A stretch of 64,000 nucleotides of DNA from Nectonema munidae (taxonomy: Eukaryota > Nematomorpha > Nectonematoida > Nectonematidae): positions 558,001 to 622,000 of the forward strand of contig JAUIRK010000934.1 of NCBI GenBank assembly GCA_030549495.1. Direction: 5' to 3'. Numbering within the stretch: the stretch's first letter is position 1; each line of letters starts with the position of its first letter. A model generated the notes under the pieces. The model made no database searches. It was not told the origin of the DNA and saw nothing but the letters and a program-made list of their open reading frames with translations. Below are positions 6,967 to 63,998 of the stretch, in pieces. The position numbers were made by a program, and so were the translations under genes.

Positions 6967-30483
<23,517 letters not shown>

Positions 30484-32245: not shown

Positions 32246-32287
32246 TAAAACATTATAAGTTTATAGTTCCGTTTACTACAACTTTTT

Positions 32288-33110
32288 AGATACTGGAATG
32301 TTAGGGACTATGTTTGTGTTGATCAGCAACTTCTAAAGTATCGTGGTAATTGCCCTGTTAAAGTATACGATCCAAGCAAGCCAGGTAAATACGGTATCAA
32401 GTTTTATCATCTCAATGATGCGAACAGTTTCTATAACTTTCTCCTCAGATATATTATTCGTCTCATCCTACTCAAAAGTATTTCAGCGGGGAGGCTATTG
32501 TTCAAAGATTGTGTAAAAACATTATGCATTTATGTATTATGTATTATGAGATTTATGCATTTGGGCCAAAACAAAGAACTTATCCATTTTGGACACCTGC
32601 ATTGGTACAAGAAAATTTATACCTCCTATAATGGAAAAAGAAAGAGGATGCAAGAATCTGAGTCTTAAACCTTGTATTCATGCAGTGCTAGTCTCACTGC
32701 CTATGTTCCAACTCGTCATTCAGCTCGAAACTTCAAGGCTGTATATCCAACACTATACAAACCTTCAACTGCTGGGCCATAAAAAAAACCTGAAACTATG
32801 CTGACTTATAATAAGTATAAGTGTGACGTTGACAAAGCCAATCAAATGATGAATATGTACTCAACATATCGTATAAATTTCATGTGGACAATGGCTGTTT
32901 TTAGTAATTATTTAGATATGGCAGGCATGAATGCTGCATGCAATTGATAAAAAAATTTAAAATTTGCGTAAAACTAATATTAGTAAAGCTGTCCTTTTCT
33001 TTCATTCTCTTATTAACTTCGTAAATACATATAAAGGCTTTTTCAATACATCCAAATCTACTCTTATCCACTTTACAAGAAACTTTTCACCTCACTTACC
33101 TCTTCTGTTA
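32288..33110 (+). pseudogene. piggyBac transposase relic
   Basis: Reads VDQQLLKYRG and PVKVYDPSKPGKYGIKFY (the DEQL...KPxKYGIK catalytic region of piggyBac). After frame changes come TAYVPTRHS, PETMLTYNKYKCDVDKANQM and MNMYSTYR, which match the YNxxKxGVDxxDQM...YS motif of the third catalytic region. Stops and shifts make it inactive. The N-terminal third and the Cys-rich end are not visible; a hAT element begins at 33121. Confidence 0.75.
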
Positions 33111-36792: not shown

Positions 36793-36840
36793 ATGACTCA
36801 AATTTTCATTAACTCGATCAACGGTGCTCATGCGTTGGAT
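36793..36840 (+). CDS. RpS27A: RpS27A exon 1 (ubiquitin-like beta hairpin)
   Basis: Codes [16 protein letters not shown], parallel to MQIFVKTLTGKTITLE of ubiquitin. The donor is GTAATT, phase 0, and the following intron is only 60 bp. Confidence 0.85.
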
Positions 36841-39800
36841 GTAATTTTTTTCTTTCTCTATCATATTTTTCATTTGTAATGGCTTTTGGTTGCTATTCAG
36901 ATAAGTAAAGAGGAAAGTGTTTTTTCGCTAAAGAAAAAGATTTTTCTCCAGTTTGGCATAGCTCCTTCTTTCCAAAGCTTGGTTTTTGGTGCTAGAGTAT
37001 TGTGTGGTGATGAAAACACGTTAGCAAGTCAAGGCATCACCAAAGATTCTACTGTTGATTTAAGTACTTACTAATTTAATTTTTAAGCTTTCTTTTACAT
37101 CTCATTTCTAATGATGACATCAAAATTAAAATCAAAATTTTATGAATCGTTATTAAATTCTAATATTTGCGTGGAAGATGAATCCGATTATAGTTTTAAA
37201 TATTCTAAAATATCTTCTGATGATCAAAACATCGTAAGAAATAAACAAGGCTCCACTTCTTTTGCTTCCACCTTTGTACAGTTTTAAATCCAGCTGGAAT
37301 CTTATTTTTGATATAAAAATTTTGAAGCTTCCCCTTAACCTTTTTCGTGGCACTTACTTAAAGCCAATAGGTTTTGTTGTAATACTTTATTTTTAGCTTG
37401 TCTGACAATATTTTAGAAATATTATAAAAAAAGTATACAAAAAGATTGGATACTCTTTTAAAAAACTTTTTAAAGAAGAATTATTTATTGTGATAAAATT
37501 CAAAACATTTTGCACTTTTATTTGAATGCAGTCTCACTTTACATTTTACACACATGTAACGCGTGTTTTTTTGGCACACTTTACATCTTCCTTGACTTGT
37601 CGAAACTTTGAAATGAGCAAATCCGTCAAACCCTACATCATCAGGAAGATTCGGTTTTGTGCCTCCATCAGTTTTTTTCACAAGTTTATCTGACACTTCA
37701 GAAGACATATTGCAACTTCTCGTCTAAACTGAAGATTAGACATCATATTTATGTTGACTTTAGAGTACAACCTCCATGCTGTTACAATTGAAATGTTTAT
37801 TGCATTTGTAATCAATGGCCAATACCATTTTTTCCCTCGTATCATAGGACGATAAGCACTCAACAGTCTATCTAACAAGTTTGTATTGCTTCACCAATTG
37901 AAGTTGAATAATGTCCGCGGCTTTTTTTAAATTTTGTCGTGCTAGTTGGTATATGAGTAATGAAGTTACTACTAATGTTGACGATAGAATTATCGTTCCA
38001 TCTGCAAAAATAAACGATTCCATCAGTACAAAAATCAAAAGTTCCTCTGGGAGTTTTTTTCATATCCGAAACAGATATTTTTTATAAGCACCTTTAGTTC
38101 TGTTTTCACGGAGGGTTCCAAAAGCTTTGAAGTTCTTTGTAGATAAATCTGCAAGAAGATTATAACTTGTGAAAAAATTATCGAAAAATAAATCATGTTT
38201 GATGGACTCGAGAACTGCTTTATTACATCGATTTTTTCATTCACCACACGACTTCCCAAAGGTTCCGCTTGGCCTTCACTTTTGCCTGAATACAAGCTCA
38301 TTTGATAAGGGTACCCATCTTCTCCACAAAGATACCACGCTTTGTAATCAAACCTAATAGGTTTACCACGAATAAACATCTTGCAACTATGTTTACCAAA
38401 GTATCGAATAATAGATTCGCCAATACTCAGAAATTTGTGAAAGACTTATTCAAGCTTTCATACAACAACGAAACTTTTGCCATTTTATTTTTATTATTTT
38501 CTAGCTTTGAGTTATCAGTAAGATGGAACATAGGCTTTATTTGTTAAAAACGCTTAGAACTCAAGGCTTCAAAAACAATAGAGATACCAAGATCTGTTTG
38601 ATTCGACCAATAATCTTTTTCCGAAAGTAGAGAATGATATCCAGATAGTATAATTACTCCAAAAAATCTCTGTATTTCTCCTTTACAAAGGTCAAAATGT
38701 ATATTATTTTTATCCGCCTCGCATACAATAAAGTTTCTTCTAAAAAAATTCAATCAAGGCACCAGTAATTAATAGCTTCCATATCTCAAAAGGAGTTTTT
38801 AAAACAAGCTTTGGATAAACAAGGGCAAGATTATCAATTTCGTCTGAAGGAATACTCTTGATGAAATTCGATTGTTTTTTCCATACTGGTTCATGGGTTA
38901 TAGTTTTTTTGGCTTTATGAATGGTAATTGTTTAGCTCTAATTCACCAGCAGGTTTGAAAAGCTCTTCATAGTTCTCGTCAGCATATTGATCAGGAACAT
39001 TTTCAGTGTCGCTATCAAGATCAATATTAGCAGAAGGAGGAAGAATTACAACATTTTTTAAGGGTTTGTTCATCAACTTCCTGAAGTGTAACGATCTATC
39101 TTTTGATGCATTATACATTTTAGAATATTCCAAAAATACAGTTATTCTTAAATTAAAATTTAAGTTGTAAAAACAAGCAAAGTATATCATAAAAATATGA
39201 ATCGAAAAGTTCATATCTAGGCATTGTTCCCACATGGGAACATAAATACTTAACTGATGAATAAAGAAAAAAAAATAAGACATACATTTTTGAAGTCGCT
39301 TGGAAATTAGATTGAAACAAAACAAAAATTTCTAGAACAAAAAATATTTTAAATAATTCTGAATTTAATGTTTGTTTTTTCATTTTTTTTTCGGGGTGTT
39401 AAAAAGTAATCTTCTTTTGTTTTTTAAAGCATAAAATATAAAAACAATTTAATTTTCGATTACAATTTTTGTGGTTCCAAACTTTTTTTTTAGCTTTTTT
39501 TATTTTGATAAAATGAAATAATAGGAAGAAAATATCTGACTAAAAGCTTTTAAAACTCTTTAAAAAAATGTTCCCACATGGGAACAACGCTACATAAAAG
39601 GTTAAATACACATTGATAGAAGGAAACGGTTTGTATGCTAAAGACAGATTTCTTTGGAAGACTTGGAAAATTTTAATGCATTGTTTTATGAAAGAGGAAT
39701 ATTTACACCAGAGCATGTATCTGAACTAAATAGAACTTTGGCCAAAAAATGGCGTATTTTTATATATTCAGTAAAACAGCAGAAATAAATTTAAAGAAAT

Positions 39801-42800
39801 ACTGCTTGCTGTGAAGTTTAATATCAATCAACCTCTTCTTACACACACCCAGTATTTTCTTCATTTAATAAATATTTGAAGTACGTTTCCCATCTAAATA
39901 TCCTCTCCTTCAGTAAGTACTCTACCATCTTTATCTTTTATTTCTTTTATTGTTTGAAGTCTTTCGTTGATGAATTCCATTTCTATGTAGTTTGTAGTAT
40001 TTTCTTCACTACTGACGATGTTTCGACTTCATTTAGCTCTGTGCATTTGCTTTTGCCACAGCTTTTTTCGACTTTTTATATTCTTTGCTATAGTCATTAG
40101 ACCTGTCAAATCGGTTAGTTTCTTTAAAAGCTTTTTCTTCTTTATTCCACCGCCATGACCCTTTATCATTTACTGGTTTTCTACCAGATGTCTTTCCAAG
40201 TATTTCTTTTCCTATTTTCAAGATTACATTACCATTCTCCTTCCCCCATTTTTGCACAGCCACTGGGTATCTTACTTCTCTTATTATTTTATCCATAAAC
40301 GTAGTTCTCGCATCTGTATCTTTCAATATTTTATCTTTTATTTTATTTTTGTTCTCTTGCATATTCTTTCTAACTTTAACCCATTTACGGCCAATGTTCC
40401 TATTTTGGAACATAAGTATTTTCATCTTCGTCTGCTTTTTTCAATGACCTTGAATATAAATCGCCTGCGTTTTTTTTGATATCGTCTGCTTTGCTTGGCC
40501 TTAAATGGGTTAAGGTTGCAATCTATCAATACCAATTGATATTGTGCTCACAGTACGTCATTAAATTTTGTTTTCTAGTTTGAAAAACACTTTCTCCTTC
40601 ATGGTTTCTATCGATTTACACCCTAACCTCCATTTATCCTCTCAAACTCACATCTACTTTTTCCTATAATTGCTCTTTCTTCTTTGGAAACTTTGCCAAG
40701 CACCTCAAACATCATGGTACAAAAACATCCTTTTCGTTCTCTAAAATCCAGTTTGAGGTGCATACGCCCATATAACGTTAACTACAGCTGTAGAGGTTTT
40801 TATCCTCTCGCCACTTCTATTTACCTCATGTAAGCTTCCTATAAATGCCTTACATAATACTACTCCTACACTCGCTCCGCTATAGAATAGTTTGTACCCT
40901 TCACCCAAATAACCCATTTGCTCTGTTGCCCTTCCACCTTGTTTCTTGAACACTTAACACCAATTTTTCGCCTTACCATCAAATCAGTCAGCTCTCTTTC
41001 TTTCCGAGTCTTTGTCTAACATTTAGCATTCTAGCTTGTACCAAATTTTCATTTTCCTATTCTTTTTTTACATTTCGAAAGAATCTGCCCAACTCTATCC
41101 CACCCCTCCGCCTACCGGGCACGCCCTGTCTGATTTATGTGAATTGTTTATTTATTTGCATATGTTATACAGAGGGAGGCTTTTCCTGCCGCTAACCCTC
41201 TCTATTTATCCAGGCTTGTGACCGGCACTGGACTAGACTGGATTGCCCCTTTTAATGCCTGAATTTGAAAGTTTTTCAGAGGCATCTCGCCCTGACAGTT
41301 AATTTTTAACGTTTTTCAAGTATTAGTAACTGTTCCTAACTAGCAAGTAAACTAATCTGATTTAAGGATATTCTTATTTTATTCAATCTTAAACCCTTAA
41401 AGAAAAAACTATTCACCATTTTGAAGAATAGCGTAGTAAAGAAAGTTCATAATTTAATTAAAGATTTCGATGGAAATTTGGCTGGACTTAGAAGAACTTT
41501 ATTGACTTTCATTAGCAGGGCGAGTAAAAGTCAATAAAGTCAACTTTTATTTCCGTTTAGCAAAAACTCTTTGAAGAAGATCTTTACTTTTTTAGTCTAA
41601 AAATTTTTGGGTACTTATGGGTTATCTCCCCCCCCCCCATTCTAAAAATTTTTTTAAATTTTTTTTCCAACTTAATAATTTTAAAATACTAATTGATTAA
41701 TAATTTTAAATATATAATTAAATATATATATTTAATTTATGAAAATAAATTAAACTAATTGTAAATTAGTTAAATTTTAAAAAAATTTTCCAACTTAATA
41801 ATTTTAAAATACTAATTGATTAATAATTTTAAATATATAATATATATATATATTTAATTTATGAAAATAAATTAAACTAATTATTACTTTTTTTGCTGTA
41901 TGATTTTCATTAGTTATACTATATAATATTTTTTAGTAAGTTTTTTTATATATAAAATATTTTTATATTTATTCATTTATTATTTTTACTCATCATTTAA
42001 ATTAAAACAAAAATTTTTAAAAAAATTTTTAGAGTGGGGGGGGGGGGAGATAACCCATAAGTACCAAATTTTGAACTAATTTCAAATTTTTAAGTCAATC
42101 AAAATCAATTTTTCGAGTTTAGGTCAATAAAGTCAATTTTTATATTTAACACTTTTTGATTTAATTTGAACGATAGCCCGTGGTCAAGAGTTATGGCAGT
42201 TTAAAAAACAGTCTCACCACAAACATCGCTTTTGCCGAAATATGAACAAAATAAAGTTTGCTCCTTGATTGATTGATTTCAAAGCAAACGTCTAATTTTC
42301 AAAAATATTTGGTATACTGCTTTGGAGTTTTTTAAACTTTGAGTTGGAAAGAATTCATACGTTGAATTTAGATTGCGCATTTTAAATATATACTTTAGCA
42401 TTCTTATCTTCTCATTTTTTCAATTTTTAGGTTGTAAAATTCTGGGCGGTGGTAAAAAGAAGCGAAAGAGAAAAAATTACACAACCCCTAAAAAGATCAA
42501 ACATAAAAAGAAAAAAGTTAAACTTCCTGTTTTGAAATTCTATCGTGTATGCCACCACTTTTTTAATATATCTATTTTCGTGTGAAAAAATACTTTTTAA
42601 AATTAAAATTGGAGGAAGGTGAAACAAAACTGGCCTACTGTGAATGAAGAAATTAAAAAGTCCAGGAGAAGGATCAAAAATGAAAGAAAATAGGTTGGCG
42701 TATTTGTGAACGCTCCTTAACCATATTTATGAATTTAGTATGTTTTTTACATCAAATTGTGAGCAAACGCGCAGCTTTCATTAAAACGTTATTTTATGTA

Positions 42801-45800
42801 CAAAGCTTTTGTTTGTCATTTGAAAGGTGGAAAGAATTACTTTTAAAAGCGTATCATTACTATTTCATGAATTATAATTCTTCCAGATGCTTTTTGCTTG
42901 TGCTTCATATATTTATGATTGATCACTAATGTGAAATTTTTGACACTTTCTAGAAAATATTCAGTGGACCCTCATGAAAGGTTTGTTTACTATTATAAAC
43001 CTTTGTTCGGCTGATAAAATCGATCAAACTAAAAAAGTCGATTCCGATCTAATCGATACATCACTTGTATATGGAGTGAGAAAAAAAATCTTCAATGAGA
43101 AACGAGATAATGATGATTCTTCACTAAATGAATCTCTCTTTATACACCGTTAATTTTGCAAAGCATCTATACATTTTTTAAACTTTTATTATGTATTTCA
43201 AATGAAGGTTTAAAACTCGAAAAAATATAAGAGCTTTAAAATTTGGTTGTACGAGCATAGAAATGAAGAAATGCATCATTGCAGGCACGCACATCTCGAT
43301 TGAAGCGACCTGGAAATGTCAACTTCCCATATAAGCGCATGTTTTGTATAAATCTATCTATTTGGTTCACGAGTGAGTTTTTTTGTCTGTTAAACGTATG
43401 ACTTTCTTCTCATTCACTATGCCTGAAACTTGAAGTAAATGTTTTTAAAATTGACTAAATTCAACTATAAAACTAGTGTTTAACGCGCATCCTAATTTAA
43501 GGTAATAGAGGATTTTCGCAATAAAAGGTACCAAAATTCGGTCACAGAAAAGGAGGTCCGTTACACGACTACTATATAGCTCGCAGAAACTGGTCAATTT
43601 GAAACACTAATAATTAATTATAGTTTTAATTATAAATAGAAATTTAAATATTAATTTTAAATAATAATTTTAATTTAGATAGAATGAATGATGTATCCAT
43701 TAAAATGTCCTGATACTCTAAAATTTTCATGTGCAAGCCCTCTTCTCTCAAAAATTCAAAATGTGCCTTTTCAAAAAATATTTGTTAAAATGATAAATTT
43801 TCAATTTTGGTTTGTGTAGTTATCTAATTTCCCATGATTTTGTTCTTGTATTTAATTCAGATATTATCTTAAATTTACTTTTTTTTTATAATAAAATTTA
43901 CATTATAATTATAATGTTAATTAGTTAACTAATTAACACAAGTTTTGTTAATTTTTACTACCGTAAATTAATCACCTAACTACCGTACACATTCGTGTTA
44001 ACGCGCAAACACGGATAATTCGCATCCCATTTATAAGCTATTATTTTGACCTAGTATGTGTGAATAATCCACGTCAAACATTGAGCTAAATTCAAATTGA
44101 TAATTTTCTGAAAATGAAATAATTTTCAAGGGATTAATCTATTATTTTTACTTCTTTTTTTACTTCTAAAATGTTCTTTTTAATTCTAAGCGCTCTTTCT
44201 TAAACACAAAATAAAATTGAAAAAAGACAAATTATAATTGAAGAAATACATTTTCAAACTAAAAAAATAGAATTTAGAAGTAAAAATTTCCCTACAGGTC
44301 AGGGAAACCTGGAAAGGACTGATACCTATTCAGTTCAATGGGCTTAGCAGCCCTCAGTCTCCAGCTCGCATCGCTTTCTTTGTAGGTTTTACACCACCAA
44401 GGTAGGTTGGTGTAACAAAATGTTAATAAGAAAATTTATTGATGACAATCGTGGATCTCCAAAGGATTGCCAGACACCAACTCTGAGCTAGGATTGGAAG
44501 CTCTTTGGCGTTATCTCCGTATGTCTTGGAGTGAGCCGTAGTAGCGAGAGCTATTGCAGAGTGGTGGTGATGCTGGGCTTGAGTTGAGATCTTCGATTAG
44601 TGCCCATCTTCAGGATGTTTGTGTTATATATGTTGTGTTGCCAATGTGATGTGTAGTCAATGTCAAACTACAGAAATTGGGGCTTCATGTAGTGTACATC
44701 GTGAATTGGATAACCTTGGATGTTTTGCATATGTGTGAAAGTTGTGATGTACTGTGTGGTTGAATGATTGAATGTCCAGTAGGATTGATGGTGATTTGAT
44801 GAATGAGGTGAATGTTGCACTGTTGAATATTTACATATAACATCGCGGTGTTACATGTAACCAATCAGAACTTTCACACACACATTTTTTGGGGTGATTT
44901 ATCTCTATCAAGGTAAAGCTATTTAGAAACTGCATATTCATGGAATTTTAAAATGGGAATTTTGTAGACACTATGTATATGTGTTTTGTCTATTTTCGTT
45001 CACACACTTTACTATCTCAACTTTTTTCTACTTCGGTTTTATCTTGTTTGCGTAGGTAACCCGCACCCCCATTTTTAGTCTGCGTGGTTTAAACGCGAGT
45101 GTTTACTCTTGTTATTATTTGTTCACTCGAATATATTTAATCATACAGCACTTTTAGACTGATTTCAATTTTTTGAAGTTAAACCAATCAAAAATAAAAT
45201 ATAAAGCTACTCGAATTTTAGGTTTTTTATTTGCGGTGTCGCGTGCAAGGAAAGAATTATTCTCCGTGATTGTACAGATGAGTACATGGATGTAACAGAT
45301 TGAATTCCCGAACGAGATTCCAACCCAGGAATCTCTATAGTGGATCAAATTATGGAAAGTTATTTAATGTTTTTATACTTTTGAGGGTACAGAAGATGAT
45401 ACTAGATAACATAAGAATTTATTCGATTTCTTCATTCTTTTATGAGTTTAGTACATTGGTTCCCAAACTCTGGGCCATGGTGCCCTGGGGGCCGTAAAGC
45501 AAAATTTAAGGGGCCATAATCTGAGGCTATGCATAAATAAAACCAGAGGAGTTTAGCGAGTAGATAGCCGGTCGAGGGAAGGCTTCTTATCCCACCTGTG
45601 AATACTATGATACCTATGAATTGTGAGTAGAATTGTTTGCCAACTAGAGCACCTAATTGTCACAATGTTATCAAATTTGTAAGATTCAAAGATTTAATCA
45701 CAGCGTAGGTATTCACCGGCTATGATTGTTGTGGGGACCATAGACAAGGATCATGTATGAAAAGTGGGTAACGATCAGAAAAAGTTTGGGAACCACTGGT

Positions 45801-48385
45801 TTAGAAGAGTTATCCAACGTCTTGATGTTATATAAGATATTATATTATAATTATGAATATATATTCATATTGTCTAAAACAAAAGTGATATACAATTCAA
45901 TGAACGCGTAACGTTCGTTATAAAGAACAATGTGTTTCAAAACACGTAATCTATAAATAAAACTAATCGCATAGCGTTTAATTTTTAATGCTCTAAATAT
46001 TACATTACTCCAATATAATTTCAGCTAAAATGAGAGATTGTAATTGAAAGCGCATTCTTGCTTGATTTCATCATTGGTGTTGAAATCGAAATGAAAAAAT
46101 CTACCAAGATATGTTGAGGATTGTAAACGACGTAGAGATAACTGAAGAATGGTTTATTAAAATTTATATGTCACATGATGAAAATATCAGTAATCAATGA
46201 AATAAAGAAAATCAAATTAATGATTTTTCTTTTCGTTAAAACGAACATTTCGCTTTAATGGGTTTATAATAGTGATATAGATATATACGGTATCCCAAAA
46301 AGTTGGAATATAAAACCATGGATTCAGTTCCAGAACACAAATATTTCAGTGTCTGGCTCCGGCTTTGTCAATTTTTTTCTCAAGTTTTATAAAGTTTATT
46401 GTACTTAGTTCATAACCAATATATGAAATTCATATTTTGAAAAATTAGATAAAAATGATAAACCATATAAATCCTCATTTTTTTTTATATAAACAAAATT
46501 TATATATAATATATATAAATGTATATTCTTCTAGAAGTAAAATTCGGACACCTATTTTTATGTTTTGAGTTTTGACTCTACGGAAGTAAAGTGGATTAGT
46601 GTGAAGTACTTTTTCAAATTTTAAACTTATATTTTTGGGTCATAATATAACACTTTGAAATTTTTTTTTAGTCATTAAAATTTGAAAGAAATCCTAATAA
46701 TCCGGACTAATTTAATTTTGCAAATGCAAAAAATGTGTTTATTAATAAAAAAAGATTTTATTTTATTACATTTCTTTAACATTTAATCATATTATACACA
46801 TATACACAATGCATTTTGTTTCGCTTTTCTATCTAAGCTTCTTGACAATGACCGTAAGGTCGAAAATTTGAAGTAAATAATAAATTTGCTTTTGAAAAGT
46901 CGTGTTTTCTAAATACTCACTTCCTGTGTATTATTTTGTTTTCATCTTCAACTATGAAAAGTACCGACTTCGCCATATCAATTAAGAAAATTGAAAATTT
47001 TAAAATCCTGCAATATTTTAGTTCAATCGTACGTTTTCTTTTATTTTTTGATAGTATGGTTGAACATTAGTATGTTCTTTTTATCATTCAAAGCACAGAA
47101 ATTGATCAAATATTTTAAAATCATCTATTTTGATATTAAATCCTTCTTTTTTTCACAAAAAAACCATGTTCGGTCACCCCAACCTAATATTGAACGTTGT
47201 GCAATAAAAACAGAATAAACTAATTATTTTAATTCCAGACATATGAGCGACATTTATGATGTTACTGGCTCTGCCTCCATTTTTAAAAATTACTCCGAAA
47301 CCCTATATAAAACGAAACGCAAAAAAGAATTGTGCTTCCTCATAACTTTAGCCATCTTAACTAAGCACATATGTGCACACTTAGCATTTTCGCGAAAATA
47401 AATTTAGTGTGAAAGTTTTTAATGTATTTTCGAATATGTACAAATGTTCTATGCTTTTCAACTCCTTGTGACCCCCTGAAAAATATGGGATAACTTCCTT
47501 GGGCTTCGTAGCATCCAGACTAAGAAACGATTCGCTATGGGCTCAATTAAAGTTCGCAATAACGATGCTACATCAGTTCACCAGAATAAATTAAGATGTT
47601 AAAATGTAGGCTACTATTTTCAACTTTACTTGTTTTATAACTGGTTTATTTTTTGGATAATAATCTGAGAAATTAAGTGAAAGTTTTACACTACATGAAT
47701 ATCGGAACTTTTGCTCATTTAAACAAATATCATGACTGCCACCTCTGATCTTATTGTATTAGTTCAAATATTTCTAAATTACAGTTTTACCACAGATTGG
47801 GTGTTCAATCTTTTTATCTGATGGACCAATTCTGAATAATAAGTACCTTTTGTGGATTTCAATTATGGTGATCTGTTATTCAAAATGAAATATAAAACTT
47901 TATTCAAATAAATTTAATTGCATTTCTGACATTCCTTTTCTTTTACAATTTTTTTTGACAACGAAATTTACTTATTTATTTTTTCATTATTTTTTTTATT
48001 ATTTTTTTGGATTTCATCAAACGTTTTCGTCCGCCTATATAAAATTTATTTCAATCAATTGACAATAATATAAAAATTTGGGGGAAGAAGCCGAATTTTT
48101 ATTGGCCATTCATTATACATTTATCCCGGTTTTTGGCTATAGTTTGATCTTTGACGATACACCTTGATTTTTGGTTGGAAATAATAAGCGGAATCCATTC
48201 ATTGTTGATGGTAATATACTGTGTTTTAAATGTAGGTTGATGAGAATGGACAAGTCAACAGACTACGAAAAGAATGCAGTGGTGGGAAGTGTCTTGCAGG
48301 AGTTTTCATGGCTCAGCACTATAACAGACAGTACTGCGGTAAATGCCACCACACCATTGTATTTGGTCAGTCCGACGAAAAGTGA
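36793..48385 (+). CDS. RpS27A: Divergent ubiquitin-like / ribosomal protein S27a fusion
   Basis: Coding exons 36793-36840, 36901-37063, 42431-42546 and 48236-48385 join to 477 nt (158 aa; usual length about 156). The C-terminal 81 residues are a clear eS31/RpS27A: basic [35 protein letters not shown], and a zinc ribbon with CSGGKC and YCGKC. The N-terminal 77 residues align along the whole of ubiquitin and end in LGG followed by GKKK, so the usual protease cut after Gly-Gly is preserved. They are far from canonical: K6, K11 and K33 are lost, K48 becomes R, K27/K29/K63 are retained, I44 becomes V, V70 becomes S and R74 becomes L (one residue is inserted near the start and one near position 54). 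The S27a part joins the 40S ribosomal subunit; the leader acts as a co-translational chaperone-like tag in the family. Whether the released moiety still conjugates is unknown. There are precedents for divergent leaders (nematode UBL-1; FUBI on S30). A spliced 5' UTR is possible (acceptor-like TTTTAG at about 36780). Confidence 0.88.
36901..37063 (+). CDS. RpS27A: RpS27A exon 2 (rest of the ubiquitin-like fold)
   Basis: Starts [14 protein letters not shown] after [24 protein letters not shown] and TKDSTVDL align with GIPPDQQRLIFAGKQL and QKESTLHL. The donor GTACTT splits a Ser codon completed by exon 3. Confidence 0.85.
37339..39601 (-). mobile_element. piggyBac element with TTAA ends in RpS27A intron 2
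   Basis: TTAA at 37335-37338 and 39602-39605. The left end CCTTTTTCGTGGCA and the inverted right end CCTTTTATGTAGCG agree at 10 of 14 bases. A palindrome, TTCCCACATGGGAA, sits near the right end (39570) and again at about 39228. The element is 2,263 bp and encodes a broken transposase. Its lineage differs from the piggyBac relics at 32.3 and 57.3 kb. Confidence 0.85.
37481..39120 (-). pseudogene. piggyBac transposase, multiply frameshifted
   Basis: From the minus-strand start: an acidic N-terminus with [33 protein letters not shown] and [27 protein letters not shown] and [20 protein letters not shown] with the second catalytic Asp; TKGAYK; then [14 protein letters not shown] and the C-terminal Cys-rich domain ([20 protein letters not shown]). 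These are the expected piggyBac parts in the right order, but on at least four frames. Confidence 0.85.
39840..41020 (-). mobile_element. RTE-like LINE fragment (endonuclease and linker)
   Basis: Minus-strand reading gives an apurinic endonuclease piece (40953-40741) with [20 protein letters not shown] and [14 protein letters not shown], then a linker with [20 protein letters not shown] and [11 protein letters not shown]. This is the order found in RTE/BovB-like ORF2. The two parts are separated by a piggyBac MITE (40380-40509), which must have inserted after the LINE. Confidence 0.8.
40380..40509 (+). mobile_element. piggyBac-type MITE, copy 3 (130 bp)
   Basis: TTAA at 40376-40379 and 40510-40513, with CCCATTTACGGCCAATG and CTTAAATGGG ends. 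It is nested in the LINE at 39840-41020. Confidence 0.88.
41601..42070. mobile_element. Foldback element with C/G tract in its arms
   Basis: The left arm GTACTTATGGGTTATCTC plus a run of C and ATTCTAAAAATTTTT is repeated inverted on the right (AAAAATTTTTAGAGT, a run of G, GAGATAACCCATAAGTAC). The arms are about 45 bp. The AT-rich core contains a direct duplication of 93-94 bp (41667-41760 and 41790-41882). It has no coding capacity and lies in RpS27A intron 2. Confidence 0.8.
42431..42546 (+). CDS. RpS27A: RpS27A exon 3 (Gly-Gly junction and basic domain)
   Basis: Acceptor TTTTTAG. Codes CKILGG, the predicted cleavage point, then [15 protein letters not shown] and [10 protein letters not shown]. 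The donor is GTATGC, phase 0. Confidence 0.93.
42974..43153 (+). CDS. Small ORF, possible secreted peptide precursor
   Basis: A 59-residue frame starting [13 protein letters not shown], a short hydrophobic segment that could be a signal peptide, followed by a hydrophilic chain with dibasic sites (TKK, VRKK, NEKR) and ending FIHR. It lies inside RpS27A intron 3 on the same strand. A TTTCTAG acceptor sits just upstream at 42947-42953, so it might instead be a terminal exon of an unseen gene; its phase does not fit RpS27A exon 3. No homolog recognised. Existence as a gene is unproven. Confidence 0.3.
   Translation: MKGLFTIINLCSADKIDQTKKVDSDLIDTSLVYGVRKKIFNEKRDNDDSSLNESLFIHR
44280..44850 (-). 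repeat. Strand-biased retroelement-like segment
   Basis: The minus strand is markedly A/C-rich, unlike the surroundings, with pieces such as [10 protein letters not shown] reminiscent of Jockey-like C-termini. It includes a hairpin, TTACACCACCAAGGTAGGTTGGTGTAA in two arms, at 44389-44415. Similar composition to the LINE relic at 49.1-51.1 kb but inverted. Class uncertain. Confidence 0.35.
45454..45798. mobile_element. hAT-type MITE (345 bp)
   Basis: Ends CATTGGTTCCCAAACT and (complement) CAGTGGTTCCCAAACT are inverted repeats. The flanks GTTTAGTA (45446-45453) and GTTTAGAA (45799-45806) agree at 7 of 8 bases, as a worn 8 bp target duplication. No coding capacity. Located in RpS27A intron 3. 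Confidence 0.85.
46351..47300 (+). repeat. Dispersed repeat family A, split copy
   Basis: Matches the copy at 8798-9370 in two parts: 46351-46700 and about 47181-47300. The intervening ~480 bp has no counterpart there and is presumably an insertion, or a deletion in the other copy. Confidence 0.6.
48236..48385 (+). CDS. RpS27A: RpS27A exon 4 (zinc ribbon)
   Basis: Acceptor AAATGTAG. Codes [35 protein letters not shown] and FGQSDEK then TGA. The four zinc-binding cysteines are present. Confidence 0.95.
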
Positions 48386-48573
48386 TTTCAAAAAATAAAG
48401 CAACTTGAATTTCTTTTTTCTACTTTTTACTTTTTACTTTTTTAGGGTAGCGGGAGATTTTCCCGAAACTTTTTTTACTAAACCGACATTTCACCGAATG
48501 GAGCTTTTGTGATGTAACTTCTAGTAGATAAAATTATTCATCACAATTTGTGTATAGAAGTTATGAATAATAA

Positions 48574-52457: not shown

Positions 52458-53450
52458 TCAGTTTCTTTTAAAAATATTTTTCAGAACGACTTTAAAGTTG
52501 GCATCGATAAAAAAGTAGAGGATGATTGCGAAGGTGTAGTTCGCAATTTCGCAAAAAGAAGCGATTATCAACTCGTATGATTTATCTTCTTGTTTGACTG
52601 AACGAAAAGTGCCCAGCCTGATGTTAATTATAGCAGTTGGGAACACGGTGATGATGTAGACCATTGAGAACATGAGCAGATTTCCACGCTGCCTTCTCTT
52701 AACATTTGGGTTTGGTCCGGAATGCGATATGTTATGAATTTTCTTACGCATAATGAAGAAGTTTTTGATGAAGAAGTGGATCTTGTAACTGATTGCCAAG
52801 ATCATGATGGAAGGAATGATGAAAATGAAGAGTTCTACGAAAATTCCATATATATTGTCGTTCAGAAAGTGAACAACGATGCAACTATGCTCTGTCATTA
52901 CGTACTGCTTGAGAAACAAGATTGGGATCGAATAGGCCAATCCTATGCACGGGATAAAGTAGGAGAGATACTTGAAGACGAAGCTGTTTCGCCATGCGGT
53001 CACTTTGTTGACATGCAAGAGTTGAACGTATCTGTCTAACACAAAGAGCACATACGAGTAGCGTGAGATGATCAAGAAGAATATTTCGATTGCTTTGAAC
53101 ACTGCCAAGTCCACGTAGAAGGTGTAGCAGGAAAAGTTCAGAGCAGTGCTCTTCAAATCCAGTATCAAATACATCGTGTACTTCGAGAAAAGATTTAGAG
53201 AGAGGATTGTGCTGGATAAGATGAAGTATTCCAGGAACTTGTAGCCAACGTCCTTTTTCACGATATCTGTCAAAAATTTGCACGACCAACCATTTATCAG
53301 TACTCCTAGCAGAGTCAGAGAAATCATTGATTTGATGAAGAGGCTGTACTCGTATGGAAATTTCATCGTGTCTAGGTATACCTCCTGCCTCTCTAGGGTA
53401 TCGTTTACGGCAAATTCTGAATTTTCCCATATGAAAATCTTTATGCTCAT
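52458..53450 (-). CDS. Class A (rhodopsin-like) G protein-coupled receptor
   Basis: A single open frame of 330 residues with seven hydrophobic segments at about 36-58, 72-97, 112-137, 158-181, 200-229, 257-278 and 292-315. LDRYV at 138-142 is the DRY motif ending TM3. C108 and C190 can form the usual TM3-loop disulfide. P213 (TM5) and the FP at 270-271 (TM6) are the conserved prolines. An N-linked site is possible at N16. Unusual: TM7 has AIILY where NPxxY is expected, and TM2 (ILSLNLF) lacks the sodium-binding Asp. An in-frame stop lies 24 nt upstream of the chosen ATG on the minus strand, but TTTTTATTTAG just before it could also be an acceptor for a 5' exon. A paralog lies at 63.2-64 kb and a duplicated piece at 55.4-56.3 kb. 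Ligand unknown; a peptide or lineage-specific chemosensory receptor are both possible. Confidence 0.88.
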   Translation of the reverse strand: MSIKIFIWENSEFAVNDTLERQEVYLDTMKFPYEYSLFIKSMISLTLLGVLINGWSCKFLTDIVKKDVGYKFLEYFILSSTILSLNLFSKYTMYLILDLKSTALNFSCYTFYVDLAVFKAIEIFFLIISRYSYVLFVLDRYVQLLHVNKVTAWRNSFVFKYLSYFIPCIGLAYSIPILFLKQYVMTEHSCIVVHFLNDNIYGIFVELFIFIIPSIMILAISYKIHFFIKNFFIMRKKIHNISHSGPNPNVKRRQRGNLLMFSMVYIITVFPTAIINIRLGTFRSVKQEDKSYELIIASFCEIANYTFAIILYFFIDANFKVVLKNIFKRN

Positions 53451-53526
53451 ATCTTCTAAATAAAAACAATTTCTTTACATCCCTTTGCAATAAATAATAA
53501 GGAAGTGCTATAATCCAGGAGGACAC

Positions 53527-57299: not shown

Positions 57300-58985
57300 T
57301 TACAAAACAAAACCAAAAATAGAGAACATTATATATAAAAAGGTCATACATTCAGTACATAAAAGTATGGTATGACTTTGACATATCGACCTTCGACATT
57401 TTTCACACTTCCTCGTCCCTCTTTTTCTTGGGTGGCAATTTGACACAAAACAATGACGACGACGACTTGGTGAGGGGACTGTATCATATGTTTTATTGAA
57501 TCCGTAAAATGTCAAAAGGTTTCTAGTCGTGATACGAGTAGAGGCCTTATCACATCTGATTCGCATAGAACTTTCCGTGAGAGATAAGGCTAAATTCCTG
57601 ATAAAGTATTTTCTCCCACCCTTTGAAATACTAGCATATAAACTTGGCATGTTGGCTTTTACTATCACCCAACTATTGCTGGCCGCAATATCAGGAAAAT
57701 TGGTAAAAATTGTCATAGGCCATCTCCTTGATGCCCTGTAGCAAGTGAAGTTTGTAACCATTCGGTTGAATGTGTTTACGCCTGTTTTGTAAGCATTATA
57801 GTCTAGAACAGTTTGAGGTTTTTTCTTATTACCAAGTGTATTTATTTCCGAAACATGTTGACTAGACATAATGTAAACAGGCTTAACATTTTTTTTGCGT
57901 GTTTTCGGGAATGTATATATATACTCAGAGAAGCATATTCTGTATACAAAAAGTTAATTTCACATTTCGCCAGCTTCAAATTTTTTAAATCTTCAGGTCG
58001 TAACAATATGGTATAAATCTACGACCACTTCTGATGGTGCCACATATAGTTAACCCTTGGTTTTTAGCCAAATGCAAAGTTCATGTGCCATAAAAAACGG
58101 TCTACATAAATTTCACAACCTGAAGGTACCTTGGAACTAGTGACCAAGCGTTTTCGATGTTAGCTGATTTAAAATATTCCTTGTCTGGCACACCGGTTAC
58201 ATGCACTTCACTGGCAAGGACATAAAAACTTCTTGAATCATTACAAAGATAAACTTTCATACCATTCCGCCCGGGTTTTGAAGGATCATATACTTTCATT
58301 GATCTACCCTTATACTTTACCAATTGTTCGTCTATTGTTTCGGTGTCTGTCAAGCACCAATATTTGTAGCAATTATTGATAAACTCATCGTATATATGCC
58401 TAACTGGGTTTAATTTGTCTAGTGGGTTTCTCTCTTTTTTAACATCAAAACGTATGAAAGCATTTACGGGTAAGAACATATCTCGGCTGATAGCAGCCTT
58501 CAAAAGAGGTTCTCCATTTTTTTCTGAGAATAAATACTTTAAATCGATCTGTTGGTTTTTAGACTGGCCAATGTGAAATAGACAGTGAAAATATGCTAGG
58601 ATATCCTCTATAGAGAACTTGTCATAACAATAATGCAAATTTTCAAAAGAAGATTCCGTCAAACTATAAAAATAAAATATTAAAAACTACTTATGTAAAG
58701 GAATTAATTTTTTACCTGTAATTTTCTTCAAGTTTTGCTTTGCTGCATTCATATATATGTCTTATCCAACTTTGAGTAAAAAAGAGGCTAAAAACTCCAA
58801 CAGAATCCGTCATATTTTTAGCATCACCTTGAGGACCAGGAGGAGATAAAGCCACGTTACGGATATTCACAGATAATCCTCTTCCACGAACTTCTCTATT
58901 AGGTTCCCAGGAATACTTTGTTCCGTCAGGTGCTACGAGAAAATCTGATTGATCGTCTTGCCTCTCGCTACTACTTGTGGTAAAA
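57300..58985 (-). pseudogene. piggyBac transposase relic, second lineage
   Basis: Minus-strand parts in order: an N-terminal piece near 58,980-58,720 with APDGTKYSWEPNREVRGRG and FTQSWIRHIYE; 58662-58102 with SIEDILAYFHCLFHIG, ETIDEQLVKYKGRSMKVYDP and SKPGRNGMKVYL; then 57869-57300 with VLDYNAYKTGVNTFNRMVTN, RRWPMTIF and a Cys-rich end (CEKCRRSICQSH...CTEC). Domain order is complete for piggyBac, but the frame breaks near 58,700 and at 57,870-58,100 inactivate it. VYDPSKPG is shared with the relic at 32.3 kb, so those two are related. No convincing TTAA termini were found. Confidence 0.85.
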
Positions 58986-63236: not shown

Positions 63237-63998
63237 CTACGTCTTTTTGAAAATGGAGAAGATGTTGGAGAAAAAGGTGCATGTGATTAGGAATACGCGT
63301 TTCTTGTGTGCGCACCACTTTTTCACTTGATTCTTGAAGTTGATGTCGACAAAGTAGTAAGGGATGATGCCAAAGGTGTAGTTGAGGATTTCGAAAAAGG
63401 AGGAAAACATGACGGAGGGTTTGGAGTCCACCTCGCTGATGAGCCTGAATGTGCCGTACTTAAGGTTGATGATAGCCACGGGAAATATCATGGTGATGTA
63501 CAAAGCTGAGAAGAAGAAGATGTGCCAAGATTTGGAAGTGTTCAAATTGAAGACCTTGGTGTGTGTCTTCTTATCACTTTCGTTGGCGGTGTCGCAGTTT
63601 TTGCCATTTTTGTTCTTGGAAAAGTTGATGGTTAACACGTTACGACTCTTGACTTTGGATGGGAAAATTCGCTGCCTCTTCTGAATGAACTTTCGGATTT
63701 CGAAGCCTATCGTGATGCTGATGAAAAGAATGACTGAAGATGGCATGATGAAGATCACCGTTTCAATGATCATTTCATAGACTTTGAAGTTAACGCGAAT
63801 GAAAATGCATAAGTCACTTCCTTCAATAGGGTAGTGCTTCTTGATCGTGAAAATCGGCAAACTGATGAAGAACATGAGGATCAGTATCAGAGTGTATCCT
63901 TTGCGAAAAATGAAGGATTGGCGCCAAACTTTGTGCTTCGAAATGGCCTTGGTCTGGATGTAGCGGTCCGCAATGAAGAAAATGAGGAAATAGCGCGA
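63237..63998 (-). CDS. Class A GPCR paralog, partial at the window edge
   Basis: The open frame continues past the right edge, so the first Met visible near 63,875 is not the true start. From the edge inward: SRYFLIFFIADRYIQTK (end of TM3 with DRY), TM4 with LILILMFFISLPIF, an extracellular Cys, TM5 around ETVIFIMPSSVILF, a long basic third loop, TM6 with FFFSALYITMIFP and VAIINLKYGTFR, and TM7 with EILNYTFGIIPYYF. The FPxAIIN...GTFR stretch and a TM7 lacking NPxxY are shared with the receptor at 52.5-53.5 kb, on the same strand about 10 kb away, supporting local duplication of a receptor family. Ligand unknown. Confidence 0.87.
   Translation of the reverse strand, partial: SRYFLIFFIADRYIQTKAISKHKVWRQSFIFRKGYTLILILMFFISLPIFTIKKHYPIEGSDLCIFIRVNFKVYEMIIETVIFIMPSSVILFISITIGFEIRKFIQKRQRIFPSKVKSRNVLTINFSKNKNGKNCDTANESDKKTHTKVFNLNTSKSWHIFFFSALYITMIFPVAIINLKYGTFRLISEVDSKPSVMFSSFFEILNYTFGIIPYYFVDINFKNQVKKWCAHKKRVFLITCTFFSNIFSIFKKT

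Follow-up and report, generated by a model that had tools for sequence, protein, structure and literature searches.

Our analysis concerns a gene for ribosomal protein S27a (eS31) in a 64,000-nucleotide stretch of the Nectonema munidae genome (contig JAUIRK010000934.1, positions 558,001 to 622,000; hereafter the window). The gene lies on the + strand at window positions 36793-48385 (stop codon included), and its four predicted exons give a product of 158 residues: a 77-residue ubiquitin-like leader with an ILGG end, followed by S27a. Few proteins are as conserved as ubiquitin, which is nearly invariant in animals; the leader is identical to ubiquitin at 26 of 76 positions (alignment score 92). 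We propose that this is quite probably a private ubiquitin-like leader of the sole RPS27A (eS31) gene found, one that would have escaped from the ubiquitin pool and would now be a by-product rather than a modifier.

The observation of a fusion between a ubiquitin-like leader and S27a is confirmed. The translated product matches both Pfam ubiquitin (E 8.4e-10; 38.7 bits, cut-off 25.4) and Pfam Ribosomal_S27 (E 4.8e-20; 71.6 bits, cut-off 22.3), and exon 2 by itself gives a PF00240 match in a whole-genome profile search (E 1.2e-6; C630:594892-595062, equivalent to window 36892-37062). Chance similarity to ubiquitin or S27a is ruled out by these Pfam scores together with the exon 2 match.

Changes in the leader and their predicted consequences

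The preliminary description of this DNA stated that the leader differs from ubiquitin at well over half of its positions, and the count of 26 identities bears this out; its further statement that the leader keeps the length of ubiquitin does not hold, as the leader has 77 residues rather than 76, with an extra Thr after Met, a deletion near position 11 and an insertion near position 51. Its account of the lysines and of the cut site agrees with our alignment: K27, K29 and K63 are retained; K48 is replaced by R; K6, K11 and K33 are lost (K6 to N, K33 to Q, and K11 within the gap); and the Gly-Gly cut site is kept in the tail SCKILGG. Two of the three hydrophobic-patch residues were said to change, and they do (I44 to V, V70 to S), but the third, L8, is changed as well (to I). 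Further changes that had not been described are R42 to S, H68 to D, L71 to C, R72 to K and R74 to L. None of the 12 ubiquitin positions that we take to be interface or tail sites (6, 8, 42, 44, 47, 48, 49, 68, 70, 71, 72 and 74), is unchanged in the leader. With 26/76 identity, and without K48, the Ile44 patch or the LRLRGG tail, the leader does not belong to ubiquitin proper.

The residues at positions 72 and 74 suggest how the leader could have left the ubiquitin pool. According to the accessible part of PMC3731359, phage display shows that the ubiquitin E1 requires Arg72, that the Nedd8 E1 disfavours Arg, Lys and His at 72, and that E2-to-E3 transfer is blocked by non-native residues at 74 and 75. 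Because Lys72 is a poor fit to either E1, and handing on from E2 to E3 fails when residue 74 is non-native, we predict that the freed leader would be barred from the ubiquitin and Nedd8 cascades at two steps, in which case it would be a by-product and not a modifier. K48R and the patch changes, which had been offered as evidence for such an escape, are both real, but they carry less weight than R72K and R74L do. With respect to processing, the accessible parts of two studies report that Fubi is processed by USP36, which cleaves Fubi-EGFP and ubiquitin-EGFP in vitro with broadly similar kinetics (PMC8354635), and that Fubi, with Leu in place of Arg74, is still bound by USP36, the salt bridge to Glu207 of USP36 being lost and hydrophobic contacts retained (PMC10611586). 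Since USP36 cleaves Fubi with its Leu74, a leader with Phe4, Ile36, Gly-Gly and Leu74 could remain cleavable yet useless as a modifier.

We envisage the following course of events: leader and S27a would be translated as a single chain, whose sequence is observed and whose splicing is predicted; the leader would adopt a beta-grasp fold, and shield and carry the very basic S27a, a fold and a chaperone role that are suggested by the retained core and by the known role of ubiquitin leaders; a USP36/USP16-type deubiquitinase tolerant of ubiquitin and Fubi would cleave past the Gly-Gly; and the freed leader would enter neither cascade. Removal and non-conjugation of the leader are thus predictions from K72 and L74, and by analogy we infer a role of the leader in ribosome assembly and cleavage of the fusion after the Gly-Gly. 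Free ubiquitin would be supplied by other genes. A polyubiquitin gene on contig C748 has seven repeats, near-canonical with A19 and D24, and the ubiquitin of a ubiquitin-L40 gene on C559 is canonical save D24; free ubiquitin therefore need not depend on the S27a gene. A leader no longer held identical to the polyubiquitin genes could then have diverged into a private one.

Several points weigh against this proposal. Among 14 positions that we take to be the hydrophobic core of ubiquitin, one, I13, has become His and is the sole non-hydrophobic core position; identity in the core versus the rest (8/14 vs 18/62, p 0.06) and hydrophobic replacement in the core versus the rest (5/6 vs 16/43, p 0.07) are suggestive at most. 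A search with the leader region, which requires shared exact 5-residue words, gave 5 candidates and no homolog at E <= 0.01, and so revealed no close relative of the leader. The count of a single S27a locus applies to the assembled 211.6 Mb. The support for escape consists of sequence comparison and published mutagenesis, and Leu is not named as a tested residue at 74 in the accessible part of PMC3731359. The retained Gly-Gly, K27, K29 and K63 leave room for conjugation by an unusual route.

Both core contrasts, in missing the 5% level, agree with plain decay, in which the leader drifts with the cut site as its sole function and selection acts on the Gly-Gly alone; so do the broad replacements in the window leader and the change of leaders at most positions in other lineages. 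Such decay does not, however, sit well with 13 of the 14 core positions being hydrophobic, with a frame that is open across three exons, or with the coincidence between the positions retained here and those retained elsewhere: of the 20 positions that other divergent S27a leaders conserve most, the leader keeps 14, and of the 28 that they conserve least it keeps 3 (Fisher p 3.6e-5, with cut-offs chosen by the analyst). We consider plain decay unlikely. A leader working as a ubiquitin-like modifier with its own enzymes, by way of its Gly-Gly and lysines, appears to us decidedly improbable: K72 and L74 are expected to shut it out of the two known E1 routes and of E2-to-E3 transfer, the genome search yields no second copy of the leader, and the leader-region search has no homolog to offer, even though Gly-Gly and the three lysines are kept, the frame is open and most of the core is preserved.

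It could also be asked whether the leader was taken from Fubi instead of descending from the ubiquitin of RPS27A. The His at 13, the GIAP motif, the LGG end and the shortened beta1-beta2 loop are all Fubi-like; the leader nevertheless scores 92 against ubiquitin (26 identities) versus 74 against human Fubi (22) and 60 against NEDD8 (21), the Fubi letters matching PDB 2l7r over the full length, and the S30 gene of the genome still has its own leader, which differs in sequence. A Fubi origin was rejected on the alignment scores, and we find such a swap hardly credible. A private leader that has left the ubiquitin pool is the reading we favour, and the suggestion in the preliminary description that the leader has escaped conjugation duty is well supported: it looks unfit for conjugation and appears to persist as a leader that still carries its Gly-Gly cut site.

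Gene structure and the S27a half

Within ranges set by the analyst, 30 in-frame GT-AG combinations with LGGGKKKR and the S27a tail were obtained, and the splice model was picked as the combination that retains ubiquitin- and S27a-like residues at every junction. In the resulting four-exon arrangement, predicted from genomic sequence and lying on the + strand throughout, exon 1 (36793-36840; donor GTAATTTT) encodes leader residues 1-16 and is followed by intron 1 (36841-36900; 60 bases); exon 2 (36901-37063; acceptor TGCTATTCAG, donor GTACTTAC) encodes the bulk of the leader and ends within a split Ser codon; and, beyond intron 2 (37064-42430; 5367 bases), exon 3 (42431-42546; acceptor CAATTTTTAG, donor GTATGCCA) contributes the leader tail CKILGG, the cut site between GG and G, and the basic N-terminal part of S27a. 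Intron 3 (42547-48235; 5689 bases) precedes exon 4 (48236-48385; acceptor TTAAATGTAG), which encodes the zinc-finger domain of S27a (C-X4-C ... C-X2-C) and the stop codon. All three introns are of the GT-AG type, and an AATAAA at 48394-48399 (+), a likely polyadenylation signal, starts 9 bases past the stop codon.

Exon 4 is the one and only PF01599 match in the 211.6 Mb assembly (C630:606236-606355); the domain clears its gathering score (71.6 vs 22.3 bits), with four zinc cysteines (C-X4-C, C-X2-C) in the translation. A whole-protein search of the genome returned exons 2, 3 and 4 of the S27a gene and one ubiquitin-like gene on C603 (E 4.8e-4). The preliminary description had named a second RpS27A locus with canonical ubiquitin as the finding that would overturn its interpretation; neither the PF01599 profile nor the whole-protein search of the assembly revealed such a gene. 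A pseudogene was ruled out by the open frame and by this being the sole S27a found in the assembly.

The S27a half had been called almost textbook. It is a clear S27a with its zinc cysteines, but good rather than textbook, with the best homologs at 56/79 and 58/80 identities. For this comparison we used the 119 tails that could be cut out of our homolog sample, which comprises the best 120 of 1110 homologs. The top-scoring tail is that of the hairworm Gordionus (P0019; score 317, 56/79 identical), near which stands the fungus Paraglomus (score 310), and the most identities among the 20 rows listed belong to Daphnia (P0032; 58/80). A tree of 28 S27a halves placed the window beside Plectus and Trichuris, with weak support (81/66), and apart from Gordionus. 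The top score of Gordionus would point weakly to a hairworm, against which stand its small lead over Paraglomus, the higher Daphnia count and the tree.

Other ubiquitin-family genes and genomic setting

Three ribosomal leaders are present in the genome, of which two (S27a and S30) have drifted far and one (L40) has not. The S30 gene lies on C589 (about 534200-535492), and its Fubi leader is extremely diverged too, apparently with LEGG before KVHGSLARAG, an end that depends on the reading of the exon ends. At a second polyubiquitin locus (C147:430295-431649), the frame is broken after repeat two and the last repeat is diverged. Three ubiquitin-like copies that lack introns and are almost identical in their upstream flanks (C612:49918-50157, C603:128655-128894 and C612:272065-272298) look like recent dispersed duplicates; two of them end in RGGAKG followed by a stop codon, and the third ends without Gly-Gly (RLRHLR and stop).

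The copepod setting assumed in the preliminary description is doubtful: PF00379, which we take to be a cuticle family abundant in arthropods, has no match in the genome, although the family is unmatched in 14 control genomes too, so that this by itself is no proof of absence. An ordinary nematode origin was doubted as well, for want of matches in the genome to PF01484 (presumably the nematode cuticle collagen family; 19 candidates scored) and PF01060; both families are likewise unmatched in the 14 control genomes, so their absence is unproven.

Contig C107 (70.7 kb) is AT-rich except at one end, which is GC-rich and contains a COX1 (C107:1-4508) that needs a mitochondrial code; AGG is read as Ser at 4/5 well-conserved sites, which fits a protostome mitochondrial code. 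This COX1 is 47-57% identical to its homologs (best 120 of 7099 matches), and stretches flanking it recur about every 3.5 kb, 89-93% identical to one another; the repeats might come from a small mitochondrial circle or from an insertion. Cytochrome b was not found in the assembly. Perfect inverted repeats of the hairworm type are absent from the COX1 stretch, in which all 7 pairs are imperfect; such repeats are reported, in the accessible part of the source, never to be present in hairworm cox1. Rfam gave no match at the gathering threshold in the window or in 10 kb of the COX1 contig. The same contig contains a tandem array of ~13 kb (C107:54597-67601; 95-96% identity between units of near 175 bases); translated in one frame, it gives cysteine-rich repeats that, in our view, resemble EGF domains.

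Elsewhere in the window, two single-frame stretches, at 52461-53474 (-) and 63240-63998 (-), resemble seven-transmembrane receptors, with Pfam matches under the cut-off (STE3, 19 bits; 7tm_1, 23.5 bits). Transposase pieces at 57303-57953 (-), 58105-58686 (-) and 32267-32665 (+) match DDE_Tnp_1_7, which we take to be a PiggyBac-type family, and a perfect CA microsatellite of 138 units occupies 17879-18154.

Divergent S27a leaders in other lineages

The preliminary description regarded this system as under-described, a view that our comparison does not sustain. The accessible part of PMC10457151 cites a highly divergent S27a leader in Caenorhabditis (Jones and Candido 1993) and the same divergence in a further 12 species, including 9 protists (Catic and Ploegh 2005), and describes a divergent S27a leader as common to the Plasmodium species studied. 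In our homolog sample, 112 leaders could be mapped to ubiquitin positions and 8 were dropped by the boundary rule; 41 of the 112 are identical to ubiquitin at no more than 60/76 positions, 68 at 70/76 or more, and 3 lie between. Divergent leaders occur in fungi (Mucor, Rhizopus, Umbelopsis, Phycomyces and other Mucoromycota, Paraglomus and Sporobolomyces) and in animals (the bed bug Cimex, the thrips Frankliniella, and the nematodes Panagrellus and Trichuris). Judged by its sequence, the window gene is a further instance of this known, recurrent phenomenon. Among the matches listed in the open-licence literature, no hairworm or copepod S27a leader is described, and titles and abstract openings do not raise a repeated change of Arg74 to Leu.

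The divergent leaders do hint at such a change. We grouped the 41 into 18 clusters at 60% identity and counted on cluster representatives: all 18 retain Gly75 and Gly76, and 1/18 retains Arg74; Leu is found in 11 of the 17 that changed at 74, compared with 3/32 at the other changed arginines (42, 54 and 72; Fisher p 9.6e-5), and Lys at 72 in 0/18. Leu74 is shared by Panagrellus, Cimex, Frankliniella, Paraglomus, Sporobolomyces, Mucoromycota and the window leader, while Trichuris suis has Arg and T. muris Cys at this position. As clustering at 60% identity does not yield independent lineages, the p-value comes out too low; the boundary rule that dropped 8 rows and the misalignment of P0050 (assigned G at 74, where the actual residue is L) likewise make it a pointer at most. 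One dropped row (P0099) is divergent with Arg74 retained, so that its omission favours the Arg74-to-Leu reading; another (P0092; 61/76, tail SSLLGG) would have supported it; and T. suis, with its Arg74, is hidden inside a cluster with a Leu representative. Under a looser mapping (119 mapped), the 43 divergent rows have at 74 L in 32, R in 3, C in 2, K in 2, and H, I, Q and P in 1 each; in the corresponding 19 clusters Arg74 is kept in 2 and Leu is found in 11, the P0075 and P0106 clusters being boundary errors.

It is possible, if rather doubtful, that a repeated Arg74-to-Leu switch, often with loss of Arg72, removes ribosomal leaders from the ubiquitin pool, having been selected for barring conjugation while fitting a USP36/USP16-type protease, as does the Leu in Fubi. 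If so, K72 and L74 together would put a double lock on the window leader. The recurrent change offers a simple, testable hypothesis of how an escaped leader could be excluded from the ubiquitin cascade yet processed, and the window gene allows the likely chemical basis of such an escape to be read from sequence. Each independent escape of a ubiquitin leader amounts to a natural mutagenesis experiment; the window leader suggests that the ribosomal fusion needs the hydrophobic core, Phe4 and the Gly-Gly, and can dispense with the 12 listed interface positions.

Among known systems, nematode UBL-1 likewise places a divergent ubiquitin-like leader on an animal S27a, and a PDB chain listed as UBL-1 (9bh5_Af) matches residues 4-152 of our query at 1.4e-38 with the same Ubl-S27a architecture. 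Nothing points to shared descent with UBL-1, however: by the analyst's count, a single residue separates ubiquitin from the leader of the nematode Plectus (P0056), and four separate it from that of the hairworm Gordionus (72/76), unlike the window leader; with these two near-canonical, the divergence in the window probably arose separately from that of Caenorhabditis UBL-1. The leaders of Plasmodium, Giardia and other protists, so far as the accessible part of PMC10457151 describes them, and those of Mucoromycota and insects belong to the same gene and show the same type of divergence, Leu74 being frequent in those of fungi and insects; at 26/76, the window leader stands close to the diverged extreme of the 112 mapped homologs. 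Fubi-eS30 (FAU), which is cut by USP36 and USP16, resembles it in having a ubiquitin-like leader on a 40S protein, a Gly-Gly cut site and Leu at the Arg74 position, but is fused to S30 instead of S27a, has a two-residue deletion near Leu8 and is less similar to the leader than ubiquitin is; the window leader, fused to S27a in a genome whose S30 on C589 has a leader of its own, is not a Fubi. Canonical RPS27A has the same architecture, ribosomal half and zinc cysteines, with a leader that is near-identical to ubiquitin, as that of the window is not. The window gene is thus best placed with the divergent UbS27a leaders: a diverged domain stands ahead of S27a, the Gly-Gly is kept, and canonical ubiquitin is encoded elsewhere in the genome.

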